Below are positions 43,065-46,005 of a stretch of DNA of 64,000 nucleotides, in pieces (position 1 is the stretch's first letter; every line of letters begins with the position of its first letter). The position numbers were made by a program, and so were the translations under genes. The stretch is from Sphaerobacter thermophilus DSM 20745 (GTDB taxonomy: Bacteria > Chloroflexota > Chloroflexia > Thermomicrobiales > Thermomicrobiaceae), in the NCBI RefSeq assembly GCF_000024985.1, contig NC_013524.1:930001-994000 (forward strand). Direction: 5' to 3'. The notes beneath the pieces are model-generated. The model was not told where the DNA came from and did no database searches. It saw only the letters and a list, made by a program, of their open reading frames with translations.

Positions 43065-43724
43065 ATGATCAAGCAAACCGTGGTTGCCGCTGTCATCGGG
43101 GTCACGATGCTGCTGTTGGTGAGCGGCGTAGCGAGTGCCCATGTGACCGTGTGGCCGCGGGAGGCAAACGCGGGCTCGTTCGAGAAGTACACCGTGCGGG
43201 TGCCGACCGAGAAGGACATCCCCACGGTGCAGGTGGAGTTGATCTTCCCTGAGGGCCTGCGGGTGAGCAGCTTCCAGCCGAAGCCGGGCTGGACCTATGA
43301 GGTCCAGCGGGATGCGGCCGGCAACATCACCGGCGTGATCTGGTCGGGTGGCTCGATTGGACCGGGCGAATTCGACGAGTTCGCCTTCGTTGCCGCCAAC
43401 CCGGAGGAGCCCGGAGAACTTGTCTTCGTTGCGCATCAGACCTACGCCGACGGGAGCGTCGTCTCCTGGGAAGGCCCTCCCGGCTCCGAATACCCGGCCT
43501 CGGTGACGACGATCGTGGCGGGTGCCGCTGACATGAGCGGCCACGCGGACACGGTGCCGGTGGATGAGAGTGCCGGCGTGGACGATAGCGGCGCGACAAC
43601 CGCCTCCGACTCCGGGAGTGGCCCGCTCGGCGACGCTGGTACCTTCTGGCTCGCGGTCGCAGCCCTGGGGGTGGGAGTCGTCGGTGTTGTCCTCTCTGTC
43701 ACACGGCTCCGGCGATCCGCATGA
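43065..43724 (+). CDS. ycnI: YcnI-like copper protein (DUF1775)
   Basis: A 219-residue exported protein with a C-terminal membrane helix. The signal peptide ends VASA with H26 as the first mature residue, followed by VTVWPREANAG. In the YcnI family the N-terminal His and a nearby Trp and Glu form a copper site (monohistidine brace), and all are present here. A DUF1775 beta-domain follows, then a Ser/Gly/Asp-rich linker and a membrane anchor with RLRRSA tail. Start ATG 43065 has AAAGGGG upstream. The CopC-CopD fusion begins ten bases downstream, so the two are one operon for copper binding and uptake. Confidence 0.9.
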   Translation: MIKQTVVAAVIGVTMLLLVSGVASAHVTVWPREANAGSFEKYTVRVPTEKDIPTVQVELIFPEGLRVSSFQPKPGWTYEVQRDAAGNITGVIWSGGSIGPGEFDEFAFVAANPEEPGELVFVAHQTYADGSVVSWEGPPGSEYPASVTTIVAGAADMSGHADTVPVDESAGVDDSGATTASDSGSGPLGDAGTFWLAVAALGVGVVGVVLSVTRLRRSA

Positions 43725-43734
43725 GCGGCGACCG

Positions 43735-46005
43735 GTGAGCGAGCGCAACGAGAGAAGGCACCGCGCCGGATGGGTCGTGGGCGCGGTGCTGCTCGGGCTG
43801 CTCCTCTGCCTGTTCACGGTTCCCGGCACGCAGGCCCACGCGGTGCTGGTCCGGGCCGACCCGGCGCCCGGCTCGGTGGTCGGCTCGGCGCCCGGGATGG
43901 TGCGCATCTGGCTCTCCGAGCCGGTCCAGGCCCCGCCCGACGCCGTGGTTGTCACCGGCCCGGACGGGGCGCGGGTGGATGGCGGAGACGCGCGGGTCGC
44001 AGCGGACGATGCGACCCAACTGCAGGTAACCCTAACGGCGAACACCCCCGGCACCTACGAGGTCCGCTGGCGGGCCATCTCGGCCGACACGCACCCGGTG
44101 GGCGGGTCGTTCCAGTTCAGCGTCGGCGCGCCTTCCGGGGGTGTGGCCCCGGCCGGAGCGACCACGACCGTGGATACCAGCGGCAGGGCCTGGGCCGCGG
44201 TTGCGCGCTGGCTGCACCTGTTCGGCGTCGTCGTGGCGTTGGGGCCACTGGTGTTCAGGGTCGTCGTGCTCGGCCGGCTGCGCGACTCGGAGATCGATCT
44301 TCGGCTGTGGCGGGTCAGCCGGATCGGGGCCGGCATCGTGATCGTCGCCGCGCCGCTTCTGCTCCTGGCGCAGGCGGTCGGCGTCGGCGGGTCGCTCTCC
44401 GCGGGGCTGAGCGGCGAGGTGCTCCGCAGCCTGGTCCTGAGCAGCTACGGGGCGCGCTGGGCCGGACGCCTGGTCCTGGCCGTGCTGCTACTGATGCTCG
44501 CCTGGTCGGCCGTGCGGCGCGGGCGTTCGAAGCGGCTTGCTCGCTCCTGGGCGATCACGGCACTCGTGCTGGGTGCGGTGCTCCTGCTGCTGACCAGTCT
44601 GAACGGGCACGCGGCGGCCACGGAGCCGGTCTGGCTCTCGGTGCTGGCCGACTGGGTCCACCTGGGTGCCACGGTCGCCTGGTTCGGCGGGCTGGCAGCG
44701 GTCGTCGCCGCGGTGCGCCCGGCACTGGCCGCGCGGGCGGACGCGCAGCGGCTCGCGGTACTGGCGTGGGCCATGCCGCGCTTCTCGACGTTGGCCCTGG
44801 TCAGTGTGGAGCTGCTGATCCTCACCGGGCTCTACGCCACCTGGGCTCACGTGCCGAACCCGGCGGCGCTGGTTGACACCGGCTACGGCGTTGCGCTGCT
44901 GGTGAAGCTCGGGCTGATCGCCGTGACCCTCGGCTTCGCCGCCGTCAACCTGCTGGTGCTGCGGCCCCGGCTCCGCGCTGCGGCCGTGAGTAACCCACAC
45001 CCGCCCAAGGGAGCCGATGCGGTCGCGCGGGATCTCACCCGGACAATCGGCGCCGAGGCGCTGCTCGGCGTGGCGATCCTGGCCGTTGTCGGGGTGCTGA
45101 CCGCGCTCCCGCCCTCCCGTCAGGCGGCTGCACTCACCGCGGGTGGGACCACGCCCGACGCGGCCGCGCCGCAGGCATTCTCGCAGCCCGCCGTGACGCT
45201 GGCGCAGAACGCGGGCTCCACCCTCGTCACCCTCGCGATTGACCCGGCCATGCCGGGCGCCAATCAAGCCGTGGTCAGCCTCATGGATTCCTCCGGCAAC
45301 GCCGTCACCGACGCGCGGGTTCGGCTCCGCGCCCGCCCGAGCGACGGGGACGGGGCAAGCTCGGTGACGCAGATGGAGGCCGAGAACGGGCGCTACCGGG
45401 GCACCGTCATCCTCACCCCGCCCGGTGCCTGGCACCTGGAGGTGCTCGTCACCCTGCCGGGTCAGCCGGAGGCGGCGGCTCCCTTCGACCTGACGGTGCC
45501 GGTGCCGGACGCCGGTGCGATCCTGAGCCTGGCCGACCAGGCGATGAACGGCCTGCGCTCGCTGCGCGAGCATAACGAACTGGGCAACGGTGGAGCGACC
45601 GTCGTCACCGAGTTCCGCTATGCCGCGCCGGACCGCATGCACAGCATCGTGCAGACGCCAACCGTCCACCGGGAGACGATCGCGATCGGGGATCGGCGCT
45701 TCGACCGGGAGGGCACCGGCCCGTGGCAGGAGAGCGCCTGGCCGGCCCGGGGCGGGTACCGCTGGCCCGCCTACGACTTCGCCACGGACGCGACGGAGGT
45801 GACCGTCCTCGGACGGGAAGAGATCGACGGGGTCGACTGCTTCGTGGTCGCGTTCCTCGATCCCGCGTCCGCCGCTCGCTTCCGCCTCTGGATCGGAACG
45901 ACCGACTACCTGATCCGCCAGCAGGTCATGATGGCGCCCGGCCACTACATGACGAGCGTCTTCAGCGACTTCAACGCGCCGGTGACGATCGAGGAGCCAG
46001 AATAG
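43735..46005 (+). CDS. CopC-CopD-YtkA-LolA-like fusion, copper transport
   Basis: A 756-residue membrane protein with four parts. A signal peptide ends GTQA, so H35 (HAVLVRADPAPG) begins a CopC domain with the second copper site D118-T-H120 (DTHPVGGSFQF). About residues 145-430 are a CopD-type set of some eight membrane helices with WLHLFG and DWVHLGATVAWF His residues. Residues about 485-590 resemble a YtkA-like domain (DPAMPGANQAVV). Residues about 598-756 resemble a LolA/outer-membrane-lipoprotein-carrier-type domain (FRYAAPDRMHSIVQ, EIDGVDCFVVAF). CopC and CopD pass copper to the cytoplasm; the role of the two extra domains is unknown. Start GTG 43735 has a weak site, consistent with coupling to ycnI. 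Confidence 0.88.
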   Translation: MSERNERRHRAGWVVGAVLLGLLLCLFTVPGTQAHAVLVRADPAPGSVVGSAPGMVRIWLSEPVQAPPDAVVVTGPDGARVDGGDARVAADDATQLQVTLTANTPGTYEVRWRAISADTHPVGGSFQFSVGAPSGGVAPAGATTTVDTSGRAWAAVARWLHLFGVVVALGPLVFRVVVLGRLRDSEIDLRLWRVSRIGAGIVIVAAPLLLLAQAVGVGGSLSAGLSGEVLRSLVLSSYGARWAGRLVLAVLLLMLAWSAVRRGRSKRLARSWAITALVLGAVLLLLTSLNGHAAATEPVWLSVLADWVHLGATVAWFGGLAAVVAAVRPALAARADAQRLAVLAWAMPRFSTLALVSVELLILTGLYATWAHVPNPAALVDTGYGVALLVKLGLIAVTLGFAAVNLLVLRPRLRAAAVSNPHPPKGADAVARDLTRTIGAEALLGVAILAVVGVLTALPPSRQAAALTAGGTTPDAAAPQAFSQPAVTLAQNAGSTLVTLAIDPAMPGANQAVVSLMDSSGNAVTDARVRLRARPSDGDGASSVTQMEAENGRYRGTVILTPPGAWHLEVLVTLPGQPEAAAPFDLTVPVPDAGAILSLADQAMNGLRSLREHNELGNGGATVVTEFRYAAPDRMHSIVQTPTVHRETIAIGDRRFDREGTGPWQESAWPARGGYRWPAYDFATDATEVTVLGREEIDGVDCFVVAFLDPASAARFRLWIGTTDYLIRQQVMMAPGHYMTSVFSDFNAPVTIEEPE

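Follow-up and report, generated by a model that had tools for sequence, protein, structure and literature searches.

The window, i.e., the whole 64,000-nt stretch of DNA that was analysed, carries a ycnI-like gene followed by a gene for a fusion protein with the domain order CopC, CopD, YtkA-like domain and a C-terminal domain, here called the tail. The features are as follows (coordinates in the window).

43065..43724, + strand: ycnI-like gene (DUF1775, YcnI copper-binding protein family; Pfam PF07987, E 3.7e-24)
43735..46005, + strand: whole fusion gene CopC-CopD-YtkA-tail, GTG start, 756 aa
43735..43836, + strand: residues 1-34, predicted signal sequence (from the sequence and the N-terminal His of CopC domains)
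43837..44124, + strand: CopC domain, residues 35-130, ligands H35/D118/H120 (Pfam, PDB match, ligand conservation)
44176..45114, + strand: CopD membrane part, residues ~148-460, with the Pfam core 346-455 at 44770-45099 (Pfam)
45226..45444, + strand: YtkA-like domain, residues 498-570 (Pfam, column counts)
45505..46002, + strand: LppX/LprG-like (LolA-superfamily) tail, residues ~591-756 (profile comparison, model, fold search)
45928..45951, + strand: MMAPGHYM, M-x4-H-x-M motif (M732, H737, M739), candidate copper site on a predicted beta-hairpin

The frame at 43735-46005 (+) is uninterrupted for 756 codons from its GTG, a start backed by an ATG at the equivalent position in the relative L001. 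The ycnI-like gene lies 10 bp upstream, probably in one operon with the fusion gene, and such a neighbour is also present in two other Sphaerobacter genomes (L001 and L002). The first three parts score above the curated Pfam cut-offs, i.e., CopC at residues 35-130 (E 2.5e-23), CopD at 346-455 (E 5e-22) and YtkA at 498-570 (E 1.9e-7), and the CopC part matches the CopC domain of YcnJ in the PDB (9c14, E 5e-11). The four-part architecture proposed in the first-pass annotation is thus borne out by Pfam for three parts and by profile and fold comparison for the tail. The CopC ligands H35, D118 and H120, which had been described as intact, are invariant in an alignment of 26 fused relatives, and H35 is probably the first residue of the mature protein. 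The CopD residues H292 and H309 are present in 26/26 fusions, and either may be the counterpart of H295 of YcnJ, the conserved CopD histidine required for function. Column counts over the 26 fusions found no conserved His, Met or Cys, i.e., no copper ligands, in the YtkA-like part.

The first three parts of the Sphaerobacter fusion match in order the CopC-CopD-YtkA arrangement of YcnJ from the ycnKJI operon of Bacillus subtilis, a proposed copper importer whose CopC domain binds Cu(II) and which exchanges Cu(II) with YcnI (PMC12362106, PMC13344008). Both proteins have a CopC domain with the conserved His, Asp and His, and both genes adjoin ycnI. Given CopC, CopD and YtkA in this order by Pfam and the His/Asp/His ligands for Cu(II), the parsimonious reading is that the fusion would be a copper importer of the YcnJ type. 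With three of its four parts accounted for by the YcnJ architecture, the tail alone calls for an explanation; YcnJ is described with three domains only, without an LppX/LolA-like domain bearing M-x4-H-x-M. The earlier statement that two soluble domains are added here holds for the tail but overstates the novelty by one, because YtkA already belongs to the published architecture. In B. subtilis, Qox support by YcnJ does not depend on its YtkA part (PMC13344008), so C-terminal parts may be dispensable, a point that tells against a copper role of the tail.

The tail had first been assigned to the LolA type. The proposed profile search of the C-terminal region gave YtkA above the cut-off, whereas beyond residue ~591 the tail reached no Pfam or NCBIfam cut-off, those of the LolA families included. 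Pfam found no match to LppX_LprAFG (PF07161) in the tail of the window or in any of the 32 tails collected, and weak matches to LolA_like (PF17131) in 3/32. Curated membership in LolA is unsupported, as PF03548 had no match in the whole genome or in the 32 tails. The tail was also rejected as a DUF2092 protein or SCO4651 lipoprotein, since both matches were below the cut-off (19.4 bits for DUF2092 in Pfam, cut-off 21.2). When the tail profile was run against PDB sequences, only weak matches came up, including LprF (E 0.61).

Comparison of profiles was more informative. The profile of the 32 tails (A4) and a profile of 13 Chloroflexota LppX_LprAFG proteins (A5) were aligned by hhalign over 158 columns with Prob 98.0 and E 2.9e-13, while control comparisons of the tail profile with CopC, CopD and YtkA profiles all stayed at <1%; A4 also picks up genuine LppX_LprAFG genes directly in genomes (e.g., G132:C335, E 1e-8). 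A model of the tail of modest confidence was built from six sequences (mean pLDDT 69), that of the full-length fusion being too poor for use (pLDDT 55). The predicted fold consists of an N-terminal helix and a curved antiparallel beta-sheet, as in the LppX/LolA superfamily, and it matches LprG (Z 14.9 over 170 residues; Foldseek E 3.4e-7), LprF (Z 14.1) and LppX (Z 13.3) more closely than LolA (Z about 8 to 10, best ~9.6), which speaks against the possibility, raised at the outset, that residues 598-756 have no LolA-like fold. By profile comparison and modelled fold, the tail is a member of the LppX/LprG branch of the LolA superfamily, so the name LolA-like is correct at the superfamily level but misses the closer kinship; LolA and LolA_like (PF03548, PF17131) have the superfamily fold in common with the tail at lower similarity. 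The LppX_LprAFG lipoproteins LprG, LprF and LppX, of the mycobacterial lipid-carrier kind, are homologous across the whole tail but differ from it in being standalone proteins, LprG and LppX acting on lipids, and the tail scores under the Pfam cut-off of their family.

Among solved structures, those nearest to the model are of LppX and of LprG bound to glycolipid or triacylglyceride. LprG has been shown experimentally to bind and transfer lipids (PMC4709180), so a hydrophobic ligand would be expected from the fold alone, and the tail could be a true carrier like LprG or LppX tethered to the importer. The most conserved columns of the tail form a soft-metal ligand set instead of hydrophobic cavity residues, and distant relatives outside copper proteins lack the Met/His/Met set, so we regard a lipid carrier, the main alternative to a copper domain, as unlikely. 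On this reading, Met/His/Met would serve the cavity mouth, and the tail would bind lipid from the membrane or else a hydrophobic ligand of copper, such as a quinone or a copper chelate.

RseB and MucB were also among the fold matches. Like their LolA-fold domain, the tail could be a structural or docking module that binds neither metal nor lipid and places the importer by a partner, e.g., an oxidase assembly factor, which would fit with the function of YtkA-type domains in cytochrome oxidase assembly (PMC13344008). We consider this quite improbable, as it does not account for M732, H737 and M739 being invariant in copper proteins in particular.

The main clue to the function of the tail, absent from the first-pass annotation, is the M-x4-H-x-M motif. 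All of the first seven tails compared (7/7) end in a hairpin carrying it, and it was present in 30/32 tails in copper architectures vs 2/12 other matches (Fisher p 1.6e-6, a value that is only a guide because the surveyed sequences are related). Of the two motif-bearing matches in the latter group, one is a short open frame that follows a stop and the other a fragment at a contig edge. None of the nine weak relatives found with the A4 profile has the motif (0/9, including the standalone lipoprotein of the same genome), and the Chloroflexota LppX_LprAFG members compared lack it too, unlike the tail. Among the strong tails, i.e., those scoring >100 bits with A4, the fused tails L061 and L075 are the sole exceptions; judged from sequence, the motif is lost in these two. 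By relative entropy, H737 ranks first, M739 third and M732 fourth among the tail columns. Outside CopC and CopD, the only His, Met or Cys columns conserved at at least 75% in the 26 fusions are these three and M604, located in the first helix of the tail. A tight turn in the model separates the strand that carries M732 from the following one, which carries H737 and M739, an arrangement in which the three side chains could meet. Met-rich sites generally favour Cu(I), and the PCuAC chaperones have a Met/His ligand set including HxM on a fold unlike that of the tail. The HxM element also occurs in the proposed Cu(I) motif CxxxM-HxM of OprC, whose fold differs from that of the tail (PMC7558416). 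Two roles had been suggested earlier for the tail, binding of a hydrophobic molecule and service as a scaffold that delivers copper. With the Met/His/Met motif as a hallmark of tails in copper proteins, the evidence is in favour of the copper role.

Strong tails were found in 28 of the 400 Chloroflexota genomes surveyed, from 14 families, and in 13/21 genomes of the window's own family, while CopD is present in 271/400; the tail is therefore a minority feature. Their lowest score is separated from the weak relatives by a gap (122.7 vs 64.4 bits), a split that is not independent of the motif since A4 was built from tails mostly carrying it. The support for the motif that is independent of the profile is its link with copper architecture and context. 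Among the loci examined, 26 proteins have CopC, CopD and the tail in one frame, which bears out the conservation among Chloroflexota fusions that the first-pass annotation had proposed to survey. The YtkA-like region lies between in 25/26 of them (L061 is without it), and both CopC and CopD were confirmed by Pfam in 20/20 long proteins scanned. Beyond Chloroflexota, the survey used exact short patterns only. The tail was not found on known plasmids.

A second four-part copy lies on the second replicon of the same genome (C2:651589-653727; L049:3482-5743, +), adjoined in convergent orientation by a gene for a P-type metal ATPase with an N-terminal metal-binding motif (L049:5861-8206, -). The two copies resemble each other most in the tail (39% over 174 residues). 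The suspicion that the tail might be an annotation or sequencing artefact was rejected, since it occurs in frame in the 26 fusions and in the second copy, across many independent genomes. Pairwise distances of the tail follow those of CopCD (Mantel r 0.76, and 0.84 when the window's family is left out) at similar median identities of 30% and 28%, respectively, which indicates that the tail is kept and inherited with the importer. The same genome also encodes a standalone lipoprotein with a related LppX-type domain without the Met/His/Met motif (G000:C1:2672441-2672965; L010, L071).

The tail and the copper context go together even where the fusion is broken, as shown by split forms near copper genes. 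Two relatives of one genus, L054 and L055, have YtkA and the tail in a separate gene near the CopC-CopD gene, and in L064 such a gene directly follows that of a multicopper oxidase. In L052 (8284-10701, +), a PepSY_TM gene is followed by an open frame for the tail with MMATGHYM and then by a YtkA gene, so that the fusion seems to have been split here, and in L072 a cupredoxin gene lies upstream. A small unassigned gene is situated between the YtkA-tail and CopC-CopD genes in L054:320-4168 (-) and L055:4163-8251 (+).

Chloroflexota also have CopC-CopD fusions that end in other modules (cytochrome c, beta-propeller or metallo-beta-lactamase). They have the core in common with our fusion, mostly with the YtkA-like region as well, and differ in their extra module, which bears no relation to the tail. 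In five of these long proteins (L105, L109, L110, L111 and L006), the YtkA-like region is followed by cytochrome c; L105 has a metallo-beta-lactamase domain in addition, and L109 a WD40-like propeller (PD40). In L107:1681-4800 (-) and L112:1112-4276 (-), CopC-CopD carries a C-terminal beta-propeller of the Vgb_lyase or YNCE type. The C-terminus of CopC-CopD fusions looks like a slot for varied modules. With cytochrome c in the position after the YtkA-like region in some of these proteins, the tail could replace it in electron transfer or Cu(II) reduction, e.g., through a His/Met-ligated cofactor. Such a role is highly improbable in our view, as the tail has no CxxCH, its fold is not a known haem fold and evidence of a cofactor is missing.

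We propose that the protein is a YcnJ-type importer with an LppX/LolA-fold periplasmic tail, probably binding Cu(I), for receiving or delivering copper, and we hold this to be somewhat likelier than its opposite. As far as copper binding by the tail, the oxidation state, the direction of transfer and the client are concerned, we infer the following course. CopC would bind Cu(II) outside the membrane, probably swapping it with YcnI encoded by the upstream gene, and would pass copper to the CopD membrane domain, while the YtkA-like domain may be a spacer or assembly module. M732, H737 and M739 on one predicted beta-hairpin would make up a Met2His site that most likely takes Cu(I). The tail would hold copper there and hand it on; its partner could be CopD/CopC, as donor or recipient, or an extracytoplasmic copper enzyme such as cytochrome oxidase. 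On evolution, we give about even chances to the hypothesis that a lipid-carrier fold of the LppX/LprG kind became a Cu(I) metallochaperone via the M-x4-H-x-M hairpin and serves as a copper-delivering or copper-receiving arm on YcnJ-type importers across Chloroflexota. In the literature searched, which lay largely outside the subscription journals, there was no relevant report of LolA paired with CopD and none of LppX/LprG paired with CopC, and the tail is probably an undescribed kind of copper-binding domain.

In bacteria, the route of copper between the importer, the membrane and extracytoplasmic enzymes is an open question, and even in B. subtilis the copper path after YcnJ has been called unclear (PMC13344008). 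A domain with conserved Met, His and Met that is built into the importer offers a direct and testable candidate for the hand-over of copper. Should the tail prove to bind copper, a superfamily known to carry lipids and lipoproteins would gain a role in the handling of metals.
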